From: Lachnospiraceae bacterium
GTDB lineage: Bacteria; Bacillota; Clostridia; Lachnospirales; Lachnospiraceae
DNA: 64,000 nucleotides
Reading direction: 5' to 3'
Assembly (NCBI GenBank): GCA_017624835.1
Contig: JAGAMG010000050.1
Location: 1 to 64,000, forward strand
Under the pieces are notes generated by a model. That model was given only the letters and a program-made list of their open reading frames with translations, was not told the DNA's origin and searched no databases. A program made the translations under genes and the position numbers. Of the stretch, positions 1,394 to 6,923 are shown one piece after another (position 1 is the first letter of the stretch; each line of letters starts with the position of its first letter).

Positions 1394-1642
1394 ATGCCCA
1401 ATATATTACCTGTATCAGATTTGAGAAATTATAATGAAGTATTAAAAAATTGTGTGATTGGAGAACCGGTATTTTTAACCAAGAACGGAAGAGGTAAGTT
1501 TGTGGTTATGGACATTGAAGATTACGAGCGTGAAAAGGCAGAGAAGAAGCTGCTTATGAAGTTGCGAGAGGCAGAAGATGCAGTTAAGGATGAAAGTGCT
1601 TGGATGAGTCTGGATGAACTGAAAGCATCTGTTGGGGTATAG
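1394..1642 (+). CDS. Type II antitoxin, Phd/YefM family
   Basis: The 82-residue product begins MPNILPVSDLRNYNEVLK, the typical Phd/YefM N-terminus that dimerises and binds operator DNA. It continues with GEPVFLTKNGRGKFVVMDIEDYE, the conserved strand of this family, and ends in an acidic, probably disordered tail that would wrap the toxin. An earlier in-frame ATG at 1358 exists, but a purine-rich Shine-Dalgarno (AAGGAAG) sits about 9 bases before 1394 and the family homology starts there. The toxin gene starts 3 bases after its stop. The promoter and inverted repeat at 1295-1346 suggest autorepression. Confidence 0.88.
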   Translation: MPNILPVSDLRNYNEVLKNCVIGEPVFLTKNGRGKFVVMDIEDYEREKAEKKLLMKLREAEDAVKDESAWMSLDELKASVGV

Positions 1643-1645
1643 CCT

Positions 1646-1945
1646 ATGATGAAATTACGGATTAATCCTTTAGTTGCAGAGGACTTAAAGAACATTAAAG
1701 AATATATTGCTGAAGACAATGAAGAAATGGCGGTAAAAACTATCCAAGAGATATACATTCGAATCGAGAATATACAACAATTTCCGTATATGGGAGCTGA
1801 CCTTTCTAAAAGAGTTAGCTTCCGGACGGATTATAAGTATGCGATTTCTGGAAATTATGTAGTGCTGTATAGGATTGGAGACGAGTATGTAGAGATTTAC
1901 CGGGTGGTAAATCGGTATCAGGATATTACACAGATTTTTTCTTGA
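1646..1945 (+). CDS. RelE/ParE-family toxin
   Basis: The 99-residue protein has the RelE/ParE layout: LRINPLVAEDLKNIKEYIAEDN (strand 1 and helix), a second helix with IENIQQFPYMGADLSKRV, and the C-terminal sheet with YKYAISGNYVVLYRIGDEYVEIYRVVNRYQD. The P.MG...RV-like segment and the VLYRI strand are typical of ParE-like members, which target gyrase, although RelE-like ribosome-dependent RNase activity cannot be excluded from sequence. A second ATG at 1649 gives a start one residue shorter. It is translated directly after its antitoxin; the operon downstream starts 18 bases later, so some read-through into the kinase gene is possible. Confidence 0.85.
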   Translation: MMKLRINPLVAEDLKNIKEYIAEDNEEMAVKTIQEIYIRIENIQQFPYMGADLSKRVSFRTDYKYAISGNYVVLYRIGDEYVEIYRVVNRYQDITQIFS

Positions 1946-1963: not shown

Positions 1964-2569
1964 ATGAATAGAAATGTATATAATGGAAAATTGGTAGCTA
2001 TTGATGGACCTAATGGAGTTGGGAAAACGACAATTATACAAGAACTAAAAAAAGAGTTAGAGAAAAGAGAAATAGATACATATTTTACAAAAGAGCCTAC
2101 AGGGAACGAATTAGGATGTTTTGTAAGGGAATATGCTGAAAAAAGTAAGGGGATAAGTATAGCATGTTTAGTTGCAGCAGATCGTTATCAACATTTGCAA
2201 GATGAGATTATTCCGCAGTTGGAAAAAGGAAAAATTGTTATTACAGATAGATATATACTTTCATCTTTAATTTTACAGAGAATGGATGAAGTGAGTGAAG
2301 AATTCATTATGGAACTTAATAACGAAATTATTCAGCCGGATTTACAGATTGCAGTTTTTGCAGATAGCCAGATAATACAGAGTAGACTTAAGGAACGAGA
2401 TTCGTTAACAAGATTCGAAAAAGATAATAAAACGAATATTGAATTGAAGTACATGGAGCGAGGAATTCAAATATTACAAGAAAAAGGGATTAATGTTTTT
2501 AAACTCGTTAATGATGATGATTTAAAAGGCAATGTTTTCAGAGTGATTCAAGAAATAATAAATTTATAG
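1964..2569 (+). CDS. Thymidylate-kinase-like P-loop nucleotide kinase
   Basis: The 201-residue protein is a P-loop kinase of the thymidylate kinase superfamily. Residues 15-23 form the Walker A motif (GPNGVGKTT), FTKEPTGNELG near 45 corresponds to the dTMP-binding EPGG segment, AADRYQH near 72 and TDRYILSS near 94 are the family DR(Y) motifs, and SRLKERDS near 140 forms the lid. True Tmk enzymes carry EPGGT; here it is EPTGN, so the substrate may not be dTMP. It is the first of five closely spaced genes (gaps of 3-13 bases, or overlap), AT-rich in base composition. In such a setting it probably makes or activates a nucleotide for the radical SAM and UDG-like neighbours. The housekeeping tmk is expected elsewhere in the genome. 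Confidence 0.75.
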   Translation: MNRNVYNGKLVAIDGPNGVGKTTIIQELKKELEKREIDTYFTKEPTGNELGCFVREYAEKSKGISIACLVAADRYQHLQDEIIPQLEKGKIVITDRYILSSLILQRMDEVSEEFIMELNNEIIQPDLQIAVFADSQIIQSRLKERDSLTRFEKDNKTNIELKYMERGIQILQEKGINVFKLVNDDDLKGNVFRVIQEIINL

Positions 2570-2582
2570 AGAGGAATTATTT

Positions 2583-3911
2583 ATGAAAAGATTTGTTTTA
2601 GTAAATTCACCTATATATTGGGAAACTACAAGTGAAGAGGAAGAATATTTGTCTCCTTTGGGATTGGGATATATTGCAACTTACTTGAAAAAGGCTGGTT
2701 TGGAAGTGATACTGTTGGATTGTGTGAAGGAAAAATTAGGAGTAGCGGATATTTTGAAACAAATTTCTTTGCTAAATCCAGAGTTTGTTGGGATTAATGT
2801 TTTTACTCAGAACTATGAATTAGTGAAGCATATTATAGAAAAAATACCAGTGAAGTGTGAGTGTTTTGTAGGAGGGCAAGTTGTTAAGAGCATATATGGT
2901 AATATATTGGATTGGAAGACTAGCAATAAGTTAAATATTATTATTGGAGAAGGGGAATTTATTATTCCAGATATTGTTTTGGAAAGATTTGAAGAAAAGA
3001 TATTCTGTCAGAGAGATAATAAATTGGTGTACAAAGTTGATAAGCATTCACAATATTTCCCAGATGAAATATCAAATATATATTTAGATAGGGAATTTTT
3101 GAAAAATGAGGTCATTGTTAATCATTATGGAGAAAAAGAAGCTTCAATTGTTACGTCTAGAGGCTGTGCGTATGATTGTGCTTTTTGTGGTGGTGCTCGT
3201 GGTTTGAATCAAGATATTACTATACGAATGAGGAGTGCGGAAAGTATTAGGAATGAGATTAAAGAGTTGTTTGATTTATATCCAGATTTACAGAGTATTC
3301 GTATATTAGATGATTTGTTTTTACGGAATGAAGTAAGCATTAGACAGGCTTCGAATATATTCGAGGAATTTCAACAATTACATTGGAGGGGGATGGTTCA
3401 TGCTTTATCGCTTGCCAATTGTTTAGATAAAGTGGAAATATTAAAAAAATGCAATTGCAAAGAGTTATTTATTGGGATTGAGTCAGGTTCGGATACTATT
3501 AGAAAAAGAATTAATAAGGTAGGAAGTATATCGGATATTATAAAAGTTATTAGTAAAATATTAGAATGCGGAATAGATGTTAAAGGATATTTTATGTATG
3601 GATTTCCAGATGAGAGTAGAGAACATATGGAAGAAACATATGATTTGGCATGTAAAATCAAAAAAATATCTGAAATGTATGCAGGGACATTTCGACCGAG
3701 TGTTTTTCAATTTAGACCATATCATGGAACTAAATTGTACAATGAAATAGCTCAAAGTGGAATAGAGATACCCAATTGTCTTTATAATGCTTCGGTATAT
3801 ACAGCAGAGGGAAGAGGCCAGTTTAATTTTAGTTCTGGAAATTATAGTAAAGTATCGGATGAAATATTGGAAGAATATATCATAAAAACACAAAAGATTA
3901 TGGAGGCTTAA
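2583..3911 (+). CDS. B12-binding-type radical SAM enzyme
   Basis: The 442-residue protein has an N-terminal Rossmann-like cobalamin-binding-type domain (about 1-140, with LSPLGLGYIATYLKKAG and a GEGE segment) and a radical SAM domain. Cys195, Cys199 and Cys202 form the CxxxCxxC motif that binds the [4Fe-4S] cluster and S-adenosylmethionine. SIRILDDLFLRN and LFIGIESGSD follow the usual radical SAM barrel order. No DxHxxG motif is seen in the N-terminal domain, so cobalamin may be bound base-off or not at all. Family members methylate or rearrange unreactive carbons, or add thiols. Between a nucleotide kinase and a DNA-glycosylase-fold protein, a nucleotide or nucleobase substrate is a reasonable inference, but nothing in the sequence proves it. 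The gaps to its neighbours are 13 and 3 bases. Confidence 0.8.
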   Translation: MKRFVLVNSPIYWETTSEEEEYLSPLGLGYIATYLKKAGLEVILLDCVKEKLGVADILKQISLLNPEFVGINVFTQNYELVKHIIEKIPVKCECFVGGQVVKSIYGNILDWKTSNKLNIIIGEGEFIIPDIVLERFEEKIFCQRDNKLVYKVDKHSQYFPDEISNIYLDREFLKNEVIVNHYGEKEASIVTSRGCAYDCAFCGGARGLNQDITIRMRSAESIRNEIKELFDLYPDLQSIRILDDLFLRNEVSIRQASNIFEEFQQLHWRGMVHALSLANCLDKVEILKKCNCKELFIGIESGSDTIRKRINKVGSISDIIKVISKILECGIDVKGYFMYGFPDESREHMEETYDLACKIKKISEMYAGTFRPSVFQFRPYHGTKLYNEIAQSGIEIPNCLYNASVYTAEGRGQFNFSSGNYSKVSDEILEEYIIKTQKIMEA

Positions 3912-3914
3912 CTT

Positions 3915-4463
3915 ATGATAGAACAAATAAGAAAGTGTCAAAAGTGTGGATTGTGTTTTAATCAAAAACCACTTTTGGAAGGAAAAAAGGAGTGTCAGAT
4001 TTTTTGGGTTGGTTTATCTGCTAAAATCGTAAAAACTGAAGATGAAATTCCATTATCGCCAGATACGAATACGGGAATGTTGATTAAAAAAATTGAAGAA
4101 ATGTTAGGAGAAGTAGATACATACAAGACGAATTTAGTAAAATGTGTTCCGCTAAATGAACAGAATAAATTAAGATATCCTAATAAGAAGGAGATAGATA
4201 GTTGTTTTGGTAATTTAAAAAAAGAGATTAAAGAATTATCTCCTAGAATTGTCTTTTTGTTGGGCGAAAAGGTATATTCCTCAGTTGAAAAGCATTTCAA
4301 TATAGAATTTGATAAGTGGGACGAATTTAATTATTCGTATAAAGAACACGAAGGGATTTATTATGTTCCTATTCATCATCCATCATACATTTATGTTTAT
4401 AAAAGAAAAAAGATAGAGCAATATGTAGATAGTATAGAAAAACTTGTTAATAGTTTATTGTGA
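3915..4463 (+). CDS. Uracil-DNA-glycosylase-superfamily Fe-S protein
   Basis: The 182-residue product fits the family 4/5-like UDG superfamily. Cys8 and Cys11 (with Cys14 close by) plus Cys77 and Cys97 match the four-cysteine [4Fe-4S] pattern, with the typical TNLVKCVP strand around Cys77. FWVGLSAKI near 30 stands where family 4 enzymes have GEAPG, and His154-His155-Pro156-Ser157 matches the C-terminal HPS motif of the uracil-binding loop. The first motif is altered, so activity on uracil is uncertain. It may recognise a modified base made by the upstream enzymes or act as a nucleoside-processing relative. It begins 3 bases after the radical SAM stop, so the two are probably translated together. 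Confidence 0.75.
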   Translation: MIEQIRKCQKCGLCFNQKPLLEGKKECQIFWVGLSAKIVKTEDEIPLSPDTNTGMLIKKIEEMLGEVDTYKTNLVKCVPLNEQNKLRYPNKKEIDSCFGNLKKEIKELSPRIVFLLGEKVYSSVEKHFNIEFDKWDEFNYSYKEHEGIYYVPIHHPSYIYVYKRKKIEQYVDSIEKLVNSLL

Positions 4464-4475
4464 GAGGGAAGATTT

Positions 4476-4964
4476 ATGAATCATAGTGATACAGGTCTGG
4501 CAGAAAGTGATTTTTTGAAAATTTTATGGGATTACTTTGCTATTCATGCAAACCAAAGAATGCAAATTTTGAATTTTTATATTGTATTGGAAACGTTTTT
4601 TATTACAGGGCTACTTACATTATTTCAATTAGATGGAGAATTGGTTGCATTTCGATTTACTGTTTGTATATCTATCATTTTTTTCTCTTTGATTTTTTAT
4701 GCATTAGATATGAGAACAAAAACGATGATAAAATTTTCAGAAGATGCACTAAAAACAATAGAGCAGAAAAATATTGCTAAATATGGCAATGAGATTATGA
4801 TTTTTAGTATTGAACAAGAAAAAACGTTATATGAGAGAAGATGGAATTGGATTGCCAAGCGTTTTCTCAGTTATTCGAAATTGTTTCGATTGATCTTCCT
4901 CTTTTTTACATTAATTGGGGTGCTGGGTATTGTTTTTGAAATCTATAATATCTGTTGGAAATAG
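4476..4964 (+). CDS. Three-TM membrane protein of unknown function
   Basis: The 162-residue protein opens with LWDYFAIHANQRMQILNFY, then has membrane segments at about 31-52 and 58-79, a charged helical middle (about 85-125) and a third membrane segment at about 138-158. I do not recognise a named family. The layout, with paired helices near the N-terminus and a cytosolic coiled middle, recalls small membrane effectors (SLATT-type) found beside nucleotidyltransferases in defence loci, but no direct homology can be claimed. It lies 12 bases after the UDG-like gene and directly before a nucleotidyltransferase gene. Confidence 0.65.
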   Translation: MNHSDTGLAESDFLKILWDYFAIHANQRMQILNFYIVLETFFITGLLTLFQLDGELVAFRFTVCISIIFFSLIFYALDMRTKTMIKFSEDALKTIEQKNIAKYGNEIMIFSIEQEKTLYERRWNWIAKRFLSYSKLFRLIFLFFTLIGVLGIVFEIYNICWK

Positions 4965-4975
4965 AAAGGTTAAGT

Positions 4976-5362
4976 ATGAATAAAAAAGAAATAATTATTA
5001 GATTGAAAAAAATAGATTTTGATATTAATAGTTATTGGGTGATTGCAGGAGGCGCAATGGTTTTGCACGGGATCAGGAGTGATACGAAAGACATAGATAT
5101 AGCATGCACGACGAAAATGTTTTGTTCTCTTGAAACTAAGGGATATTCTGTTACAAAAAATTCTTTGGGGTATAGAAAAATTTCTTTGGAAGAGGATATA
5201 GAAGTTTTTGAAAATTGGGAAGTTTTAGGAATTGATTATATTGAAGGGATTCCAACTGCAAATATAGAAAGTATTAGGGAAATGAAAATACAAATGGGAA
5301 GAGAAAAAGATTTAGAAGATGTGAAATTGATAGATGATATGCTTATAAAAAGTAAAGAATAA
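4976..5362 (+). CDS. Minimal nucleotidyltransferase-fold protein (AbiEii/MNT-like)
   Basis: The 128-residue protein carries the nucleotidyltransferase signature: Gly25-Gly26 in VIAGGAMVLHG followed by Asp39-x-Asp41 in TKDIDIA, the metal-binding pair of the polymerase-beta fold. The rest is short, giving a single-domain enzyme like the MNT or AbiEii/DUF6036 N-terminal domain. A start at 4955 is possible, but the chosen ATG has GAAAGG 6 bases upstream and begins right after the membrane protein's stop. Related enzymes transfer NMP or AMP to tRNA or to a partner toxin. No HEPN partner is seen, so its target could be the membrane protein or RNA. Confidence 0.7.
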   Translation: MNKKEIIIRLKKIDFDINSYWVIAGGAMVLHGIRSDTKDIDIACTTKMFCSLETKGYSVTKNSLGYRKISLEEDIEVFENWEVLGIDYIEGIPTANIESIREMKIQMGREKDLEDVKLIDDMLIKSKE

Positions 5363-5671: not shown

Positions 5672-6196
5672 ATGAAGATAAAAGCATATTTAAAGGAAAA
5701 TCATATTTCAGTAAGAGAAATGGCGGCAGTTACATCTATTCCGTATTCTACCCTAAATGATATTGTTAACGAAAAAGTAAATTTGGAGGAGTGCCAATAT
5801 AAAACACTGAAGAAAATAGCAGTATTTTTGAAAATCAGTATAGATGATTTGGTATATGAAAAAGAAGATTTTCAAACATTTAGAAATAAGTTGCACCATG
5901 ATTTAAAGTGTAATGATGAAATTGATGTTATGTTGGAGATTCTTGAAAAACGCAGAATTGATCATTACCTATTGCATCAGGATATGTTGAAAGCGATGTA
6001 TTTATTAAGCTTGCTTGATTATTTATCCAAAAAGAATCAGGTTTCGCTGTGTCAGGAGTATTCAAAGCTTAGAAGCCAATCATTGAAAGAACCCTATTAT
6101 GTGGGTGATCGAATAGAAACCCGCAAGTACGAGAACTGCATACCGGAATTTGTAAAACATAATATTTACGAAGGAGATTTATATGATGCAGTATGA
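5672..6196 (+). CDS. HTH (Xre-like) regulator/antitoxin partner of the nucleotidyltransferase
   Basis: The 174-residue protein has an N-terminal Cro/CI-type helix-turn-helix (about 1-62): ISVREMAAVTSIPYSTLNDIV followed by LKKIAVFLKISIDDLV. The rest (about 65-174) is helical with no recognised domain. It overlaps the following nucleotidyltransferase gene by 14 bases, the arrangement seen in AbiE-like and MenAT-like toxin-antitoxin pairs, where the first gene encodes a DNA-binding antitoxin that represses the operon. The promoter with TTGACA just upstream and the terminator before it make the pair an independent unit. Confidence 0.75.
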   Translation: MKIKAYLKENHISVREMAAVTSIPYSTLNDIVNEKVNLEECQYKTLKKIAVFLKISIDDLVYEKEDFQTFRNKLHHDLKCNDEIDVMLEILEKRRIDHYLLHQDMLKAMYLLSLLDYLSKKNQVSLCQEYSKLRSQSLKEPYYVGDRIETRKYENCIPEFVKHNIYEGDLYDAV

Positions 6197-6923
6197 TAAT
6201 GGGCAAAAAACTTTAATCACAAAGGATAATGCATACACGATATTAAAAGCATTTGCTAAAGAATACAAAAAGCAAAATGGGAGTCATGTTCCAACAGAGA
6301 TTGTAATAGTTGGTGGCGGCAGTATATTGCTGAATTATGGCTTTAGAGAGTATACACAGGATTTTGATATTCTGGTTCAGTCCATGGAAATGATAAAAAG
6401 TGTGTCTTATCGAGTTGCAGACCAATATAATCTGCCAAATGATTGGATGAATACGGACTTTTACCACACAGCATCTTATTCGGTTAAATTGCGAGAGGTA
6501 TCGAAGCATTTTTGTTCATTTAATGGTGGAAGTCTGGAAATCAGGACAGTAAATGCAGAGTATTTGATTGCGATGAAAATGGTTTCCGCAAGGGAATATA
6601 GAAATGATATATCGGATATAGTTGGCATTTTGATATATTTGAAAAAGGATGCCCGGGACTTTTCTATGGATAAAATAGATGCTGCTATACAATATCTATA
6701 TGGAGAACCGAAAGAGATTATAAAGGCTGATGTATATGATAGGGTGCGAAAATATGTGCAGCGGTCTGTTTTGGAATTGCAGGAGGAATACAGAATTCTT
6801 ACGCAGATAGAAGATGAAACAAAGAAGGAACTTGCAGCTGTAAATGAAAAATATCCGGATATCGTTACCGAAGATAGTATTGATAATGTAATAAAGAATC
6901 TGCGGAGTAGAAGAGGACGATGA
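6183..6923 (+). CDS. DUF6036-type nucleotidyltransferase (AbiEii-like toxin candidate)
   Basis: The 246-residue protein contains the nucleotidyltransferase core VIVGGGSILLNYGFREYTQDFDILV: the Gly-Gly-Gly turn and the D-x-D metal site near residues 60-62. An AEYLIAMKMVSAREYRNDISDI segment near 125-145 matches the second conserved block of DUF6036/AbiEii proteins (basic residues and D). A coiled C-terminal tail (about 185-245) is rich in Lys and Glu. Members of this group inhibit growth by adding nucleotides to tRNA ends, or act in abortive phage defence. Two consecutive ATGs (6183, 6186) are possible starts; AAGGAG lies at 6171-6176. Confidence 0.75.
   Translation: MMQYDNGQKTLITKDNAYTILKAFAKEYKKQNGSHVPTEIVIVGGGSILLNYGFREYTQDFDILVQSMEMIKSVSYRVADQYNLPNDWMNTDFYHTASYSVKLREVSKHFCSFNGGSLEIRTVNAEYLIAMKMVSAREYRNDISDIVGILIYLKKDARDFSMDKIDAAIQYLYGEPKEIIKADVYDRVRKYVQRSVLELQEEYRILTQIEDETKKELAAVNEKYPDIVTEDSIDNVIKNLRSRRGR

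Follow-up and report, generated by a model that had tools for sequence, protein, structure and literature searches.

We analysed a 64,000-nucleotide stretch of DNA from a gut Lachnospiraceae bacterium (assembly GCA_017624835.1, contig JAGAMG010000050.1, positions 1 to 64,000; this whole stretch is the window below), which carries a module of three co-inherited genes encoding a thymidylate-kinase-like protein, a cobalamin-type radical S-adenosylmethionine (SAM) protein and a DNA-glycosylase-fold protein. The three genes open a run of five at positions 1964-5362, all on the plus strand and separated by gaps of 13, 3, 12 and 11 bases in the open reading frame (ORF) listing. The GC content of the five-gene region is 30.1%, versus 41.2% for positions 7000-64000 of the window. 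The initial annotation had described five same-strand genes with 3-13 base gaps in AT-rich DNA downstream of a toxin-antitoxin pair, and both the coordinates and the composition bear this out, as do the Pfam matches of the upstream pair to PhdYeFM_antitox (1.1e-10) and ParE_toxin (2.6e-12). The genes are the following.

1964..2569, plus strand: core gene 1, thymidylate-kinase-like nucleotide kinase of a separate clade, 201 aa (Pfam, TIGR00041, tree, residues)
2583..3911, plus strand: core gene 2, radical SAM protein with an N-terminal cobalamin-binding-type domain, 442 aa (Pfam)
3915..4463, plus strand: core gene 3, Fe-S protein with a family-4-like uracil-DNA glycosylase (UDG) fold, of a separate clade, 182 aa (Pfam, AlphaFold2, Foldseek)
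4476..4964, plus strand: accessory 8xMP-like membrane protein, a local addition outside the core, 162 aa (Pfam PF24838)
4976..5362, plus strand: accessory small single-domain nucleotidyltransferase-type protein, a local addition, 128 aa counted from an ATG, the ORF listing beginning at a TTG at 4955 (motif by eye)
1394..1945, plus strand: YefM/ParE-type toxin-antitoxin pair, a neighbour outside the module (Pfam)

In order to survey the neighbourhood of the module, an alignment of the radical SAM protein was scanned over 84,980 species genomes, which gave 270 relatives, and the best 80 of the 270 were kept as loci; since the scan used the radical SAM sequence only, neighbours were not preselected. 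The 80 loci include near-copies (L015/L016, L026/L027 and L038/L039), while L008, L009, L013 and L014 are apparently the same contigs as L027, L015, L039 and L041. In 77/80 loci the radical SAM gene has a glycosylase-fold gene overlapping it or no more than 500 bases away, which encodes a family-4-like UDG in 54 of these loci, a divergent UDG-like protein in 3 and an AlkA-like helix-hairpin-helix (HhH) protein in 20. The gap or overlap between the two genes is at most 61 bases in 70/77 loci, and in three (L030, L059, L082) the glycosylase-fold gene is on the opposite strand. The three loci with no such partner are a contig end (L064), a locus with a UDG fragment only (L018) and a chimeric contig (L066). 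A kinase gene is found no more than 700 bases from the radical SAM gene in 43/80 loci (20/54 UDG loci, 3/3 divergent, 19/20 HhH, and L018). In one Christensenellaceae locus the radical SAM protein and the UDG are naturally fused in a single 603-residue frame (L055:7001-8809). Besides, the distance matrix of the radical SAM protein correlates with that of the UDG (r 0.78, n 47) and with that of the kinase (r 0.77, n 41), values reached by 0/2000 permutations in either case, and the type of partner tracks the radical SAM tree, HhH and divergent UDG each amounting to one change. At L066:6965-8653 the radical SAM frame continues into what looks by eye like PdxA, presumably because the contig is chimeric; at L051:7001-8330 and L070:1504-2810 the frame is in two pieces.

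The 8xMP and the nucleotidyltransferase of the window do not follow this pattern, as neither was detected in a 5-kb range around the radical SAM gene (0/80 loci). Each of them occurs in 2/378 family genomes, the window's own included; the further genomes with 8xMP or nucleotidyltransferase (G349, G207) are not among the UDG-bearing ones, and in the second genome the nucleotidyltransferase is joined to a part reading by eye as GNAT. The initial expectation that the five families would recur together thus holds for kinase, radical SAM protein and glycosylase and fails for the last two genes: because these do not travel with the radical SAM gene, a five-gene system was too wide a description and a five-gene unit is ruled out. 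The conserved unit consists of the first three genes.

The three core families are confirmed by Pfam (Thymidylate_kin 1.3e-32; Radical_SAM 3.7e-20 and B12-binding 1.2e-12, with CxxxCxFC at residues 195-202; UDG 4e-15). The kinase also scores 113.9 bits against TIGR00041, the model of dTMP kinase (housekeeping Tmk), above its cut-off of 83.25. It displays a P-loop DGPNGVGKTT, EPTG in place of EPGG and Val70 where a stacking aromatic is expected. We compared 44 locus kinases with 37 canonical clostridial thymidylate kinases, keeping the L066 row and the opposite-strand L037 and L058 and dropping the near-copies L016 and L038. The acidic residue of the P-loop (D/E in 37/37 canonical enzymes) is replaced by N, G or S in 43/44 locus kinases, the sole exception being L067, which lies 2.7 kb from the radical SAM gene and looks like a housekeeping enzyme. 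Position 70 is Tyr in 36/37 canonical and Val in 37/44 locus kinases, the GG of EPGG (37/37 canonical) is lost, and position 104, Tyr in all 37 canonical sequences, is Leu in 30, Val in 5 and Tyr in 9 of the locus kinases; Arg74, Arg96 and Gln105 are retained in 44/44. In the tuberculosis enzyme Asp9 is reported to contact the sugar hydroxyl, Phe70 to stack on thymine, and Arg74 and Arg95 to reach base and phosphate (PMC3619541). By alignment, the columns compared here would correspond to these contact residues. In an unrooted tree of the 43 locus kinases (L067 excluded) and 20 of the 37 canonical kinases, one branch (support 99/99) parts the two sets, whatever glycosylase accompanies the kinase. 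Residue and tree comparison together rule out a housekeeping Tmk, and the predicted substrate would be a thymidine-like monophosphate in which sugar, base or both are changed. In the window genome, which is 85% complete, no Pfam Thymidylate_kin protein other than the module kinase was found; any such protein is present in only 4/20 genomes of the genus, and two of these are apparently module kinases.

The UDG of the window stays far below the cut-offs of NCBIfam models (55.5 against 250 and 45.9 against 125.3). Its AlphaFold2 model (pLDDT 94.2) has as best Foldseek match 4zbx, the Sulfolobus tokodaii family-4 UDG (E 2.5e-11, TM 0.77), and UdgX also matches. It carries GLSAK for GExPG and PL for PF, and retains Asn73, His155 and four cysteines. 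In a comparison of 49 locus UDGs with 30 canonical family-4 UDGs, the Glu of motif I (30/30 canonical) is Leu in 47/49, and the stacking Phe (30/30 canonical) is Leu (Leu47) in 49/49; a wider, earlier set of 54 rows has one row with Phe at this position. The base-recognising Asn73 and His155 of motif II are invariant (49/49), the Fe-S cysteines are largely kept (C8 and C11 44/49, with 5 gaps; C77 45/49; C97 47/49), and the locus UDGs gain a YKR motif following HPS. In the S. tokodaii enzyme F55 is given as the stacking Phe and N82 as the base-recognising Asn (PMC11078745). A housekeeping UDG is ruled out by this comparison. The initial annotation had pointed to an altered EPGG in the kinase and an altered motif 1 in the UDG as hints of a non-standard substrate; both alterations are real when set against the canonical proteins, and the idea itself is now strongly supported, as substrate-contacting residues are lost in kinase and UDG. 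Since the stacking aromatic is lost in both alike, a non-flat or bulky substrate base would fit. A UDG of the module clade is also seen on a fecal phage scaffold (MT836204; L004:675-1151; 39% identity), near the contig end and with no radical SAM gene visible there.

The partners of the other loci were examined at the level of fold. Profile comparison links the HhH protein of the actinobacterial loci to E. coli AlkA (1diz; E 1.6e-8), and GPW and D213 are invariant across 19 HhH proteins, D213 presumably being the catalytic Asp. The alphaproteobacterial partner has a weak Pfam UDG match (0.0022) and aligns by profile to the UDG clade with a probability of 92% (E 5.6e-7). That one slot is filled by two unrelated DNA-glycosylase folds points to base excision from DNA, the removal of an unwanted base being the easiest account of such sharing.

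The radical SAM protein has the cobalamin architecture of the OxsB/AlsB group, whose members in the oxetanocin A and albucidin pathways are a precedent for a cobalamin radical SAM route to an altered nucleotide (PMC13331322). Identity to OxsB is about 16% and the partner genes differ. Asn186, described as the residue beneath the cobalt in OxsB (PMC13331322), aligns, by sequence alignment only, with Phe74 in the UDG clade (48/48) and with Leu in the HhH/divergent-UDG clade (17/17).

Radical SAM enzymes are found with a nucleotide kinase in viperin/CMPK2 of eukaryotes and likewise in prokaryotic viperins, whose modified nucleotide blocks viral replication; 15% of bacterial viperin genes are reported to adjoin a CMPK2-like kinase gene (PMC11249213). 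A radical SAM protein, a nucleoside kinase and a triphosphatase also make up the thmA-C cluster of Photorhabdus for 4'-thiothymidine, a thymidine analogue that enters DNA and against which the triphosphatase confers self-resistance (PMC12691670). Because of this shared radical SAM plus kinase layout, the re-made kinase pocket and the two glycosylase folds, we tentatively favour, at somewhat less than even confidence, the view that the trio acts as a self-protected poison-nucleotide module. Its likely product is an abnormal precursor of DNA, whose damage it would also keep in check, perhaps as a weapon against viruses. The radical SAM protein would alter a thymidine- or deoxyuridine-type nucleotide at a sugar or base carbon, by methyl transfer or other radical chemistry, and the kinase would phosphorylate the product, which would then reach the triphosphate; the pocket of this kinase would no longer need a 3'-OH or a flat stacked base and would keep the arginines that bind pyrimidine and phosphate. 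The altered triphosphate would enter replicating DNA, phage DNA above all, and damage or stop replication, the glycosylase-fold partner would excise the altered base from DNA, and in the actinobacterial form a NUDIX hydrolase would degrade the free triphosphate. The variable membrane proteins, 8xMP in the window, may be optional effectors or regulators. Such a module would resemble viperin, OxsB and the 4'-thiothymidine cluster, with protection at the level of DNA added.

The thmA-C cluster and the module agree in a radical SAM protein and a kinase, and the NUDIX hydrolase of the actinobacterial form would be the counterpart of the triphosphatase; they differ in that thmB, described as homologous to the nucleoside kinase abmG, is no thymidylate kinase, and in that the text of the paper names no glycosylase (PMC12691670). 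The likeness suggests that the module could instead be a small gene cluster producing a nucleoside antibiotic for secretion, such as 4'-thiothymidine, glycosylase and NUDIX hydrolase serving as self-resistance of the producer, and the gene order HhH-radical SAM-kinase-NUDIX on the three Streptomyces plasmids examined is in line with this. A dedicated phosphatase or exporter was unnoticed beside the core, though no systematic search was made for either. The module is also carried by a prophage-like contig and by small genomes (e.g. G517, 1.1 Mb), and the KwaA/KwaB, XRE-ImmA/PIN and restriction-type neighbours described below suit defence better, so that we consider an antibiotic cluster rather unlikely.

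The hosts of the module include Bacillota, Bacteroidota, Actinomycetota, Alphaproteobacteria, Gallionella, Campylobacterota, Ignavibacteriota, Cyanobacteriota, Patescibacteria-type bacteria and one Woesearchaeota archaeon. Within these lineages its spread is patchy: the UDG was found in 3/397 genomes of the window's family and the radical SAM protein in 3/391 genomes of its class, the window's own genome included in both counts. On a prophage-like IMG/VR contig a membrane gene, the kinase, the radical SAM gene and the UDG stand, by eye, beside primase, terminase and portal genes. Nine more radical SAM loci on 'viral' contigs all have the actinobacterial layout; kinase and NUDIX are present in 9/9 and HhH in 8/9, the exception (L131) starting too near a contig end. 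PHROGs yielded no family for the radical SAM protein or the UDG. The patchy spread and the prophage-like copy suggest that the module is mobile.

This distribution also bears on the possibility of DNA-lesion repair, in which radical SAM protein and glycosylase would treat the same damaged base and the kinase would recycle the nucleotide. Spore photoproduct lyase plus base excision is a precedent for such a division of labour. The fusion in L055 would agree with a common substrate, as would the presence of the UDG partner even where no kinase is nearby and the occupation of its slot by two DNA-glycosylase folds. So patchy a spread is unusual for repair, however, membrane partners recur beside the core, and a kinase with a re-made pocket accompanies the radical SAM protein in more than half of the loci; we judge lesion repair to be decidedly unlikely.

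The prophage-like contig, where the module stands between genes taken by eye for replication and packaging genes, would fit restriction of modified phage DNA. Here, the UDG or HhH protein would excise a phage base as Brig1 does, and the radical SAM protein and kinase would process or sense phage nucleotides, e.g. hydroxymethyl-dUMP, so as to make them recognisable. Brig1 is a member of the UDG superfamily, a proven anti-phage glycosylase, and its model, like that of the module UDG, best matches the S. tokodaii UDG (PMC11078745). Brig1 is encoded by a single gene and sufficed alone; its key residues Tyr121 and Glu147 correspond to Leu47 and Asn73 of the module UDG by role, without direct alignment, and the text on Brig1 does not contain the term 'radical SAM' (PMC11078745). 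The tight pairing of radical SAM protein and UDG, and their fusion, would have no obvious purpose in such a scheme, which we regard as unlikely.

A link to defence had been proposed in the initial annotation. KwaA/KwaB-type (Kiwa) genes directly adjoin the radical SAM-UDG pair in two phyla, namely in the near-identical Lachnospiraceae loci L026/L027 and in the Campylobacterales locus L059, either by coincidence or as true partners; the window contains none, and its module is not a member of Kiwa. In many Bacteroidota loci an XRE-ImmA peptidase and a protein with a weak likeness to PIN precede the core, frequently together with a membrane protein. The XRE-ImmA plus PIN-like pair, which we take to be RosmerTA-like, is found upstream in L033, L034, L035, L037, L040, L042, L044, L045, L047 and L049 and further in L050, L053, L058, L061, L066 and L068, and the peptidase of L034 is RmrA-like in PADLOC (4.5e-50). 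In L022 and L036 long flanking genes may, judged by their length, be type I restriction subunits. PADLOC was also run on 124 hand-picked ORFs out of 183 flanking ones, the Bacteroidota XRE/PIN/membrane genes being among those dropped, and on a control of 124 out of 185 ORFs from 18 of 19 arbitrary Clostridia stretches, unmatched in phylum and place. At 1e-15, 130 families were matched by the flanking ORFs versus 42 by the control. Among the matches listed, the flanking set includes GajB, type I and type II methyltransferases and KwaA (2 proteins each) and the unspecific mad2 (7), the methyltransferase matches not being traced to individual loci, and the control includes mad2 (2) and AbiEii, mad6, PD-T4-6 and MkoA (1 each). 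The neighbouring genes thus suggest a defence system, which stands no firmer than plausible; for a defence role of the module we see about an even chance.

At least three kinds of membrane protein are repeatedly found next to the core. A family with a TM+GG-L-FFG signature adjoins it in 10 Bacteroidota/Ignavibacteriota loci. Profile-profile comparison relates this family to proteins of 3 Bacillota loci and of the prophage-like contig, with probabilities of 92% and 80%, and gives no match between those two. The suggestion that the membrane protein acts as an effector gains some support from such recurrence, to which the KwaA/KwaB-type genes of L026, L027 and L059 also belong; the window's own 8xMP is found near none of the 80 radical SAM genes. 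Together with the loss of the motif-I Glu in the UDG, the recurrence of membrane partners would suit a signalling system in which the radical SAM protein, with the kinase, makes a nucleotide signal sensed by a linked membrane protein (8xMP, the TM+GG-L-FFG family or KwaA/KwaB being candidates) and the UDG fold is a base-binding regulator and not an enzyme. A membrane gene of these kinds was recognised in only 16/80 loci (10 + 3 + 3), though membrane genes were not systematically searched for, and the replacement of the UDG by an AlkA-like glycosylase would be hard to explain, which makes a signalling role clearly unlikely in our judgement.

The labels of the two accessory genes in the window are less firm than those of the core. 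The membrane protein matches 8xMP (PF24838) at 1.9e-6 and 28.1 bits, slightly under the 30-bit cut-off. The Pfam scan of the last gene gave no significant match, and it owes its nucleotidyltransferase label to a GG..G.R..T.DIDI motif seen by eye and to a weak match (E 0.002 over 26 residues) with the DUF6036 protein at 6186-6920. Further out, Pfam identifies a sigma-70 region-4 protein upstream and a helix-turn-helix (HTH) protein followed by the DUF6036 nucleotidyltransferase (weak AbiEii match) downstream; the latter two, at 5672-6923, are possibly an independent toxin-antitoxin-like pair. Elsewhere (L214:468-3097), a relative of 8xMP adjoins a divergent gene whose product looks by eye like a purine-nucleoside-phosphorylase-like plus HAD-like protein, another nucleotide-linked setting of 8xMP.

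Several points weigh against a poison-nucleotide module. Its chemistry is deduced wholly from folds and residues, and the defence context is suggestive only. As the kinase is missing from the 700 bases on either side of the radical SAM gene in 34/54 UDG loci, it is non-essential or supplied elsewhere, and the NUDIX gene, present in 15/80 loci, is confined to the HhH type. The UDG clade may be non-catalytic as a glycosylase because the Glu of motif I is lost, and Pfam HhH-GPD was matched by 1/6 HhH proteins scanned (E 0.0067). The two halves of the radical SAM tree are so widely separated (branches 2.55 and 1.62) that they may differ in product. Finally, a simple scheme of making and then excising a base does not require a direct fusion of radical SAM protein and UDG.

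We also asked whether the module is already catalogued. The radical SAM protein and kinase of the window match the PADLOC candidate PDC-M51 (A, radical SAM-type; B, kinase-type) at 5.1e-13 and 2.6e-13, and PDC-M51A is matched at 1e-5 by 54/65 radical SAM relatives. This model gives the window protein 46.6 bits versus 106-171 bits for other, longer proteins (frames of 524-680 aa) in 96/249 genomes; since it scores higher on these, it is unspecific and identity with PDC-M51 was not accepted. Ten further loci hit by PDC-M51A (L095-L104, about 1.5 kb per side) contained no UDG or HhH gene and a single weak kinase match (1.7e-4), and the window UDG matched no PADLOC model. No description of an operon of radical SAM protein, kinase and glycosylase was found in the open-access literature searched; a figure legend of the DefensePredictor paper lists a UDG in some predicted system (PMC13092281). 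The principle of a radical SAM protein and a kinase making a nucleotide poison is already known; the literature searched offered no precedent for the glycosylase partner, the implied DNA target or the re-made clades of kinase and UDG.

In its broadest form, the poison-nucleotide reading would make the trio a pan-prokaryotic immune module and the DNA counterpart of viperin, in which an altered thymidine-type triphosphate would poison phage replication and independently recruited glycosylase folds (at least two, UDG and AlkA-like HhH) would clean the host DNA. We consider this form doubtful. If true, a DNA-directed and self-protected branch would join the nucleotide-poison defences of viperin, and genome searches could find natural thymidine analogues that block DNA synthesis along with the matching excision enzymes. 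Even without a role in defence, the residue changes predict that kinase and glycosylase are both dedicated to one altered pyrimidine nucleotide.

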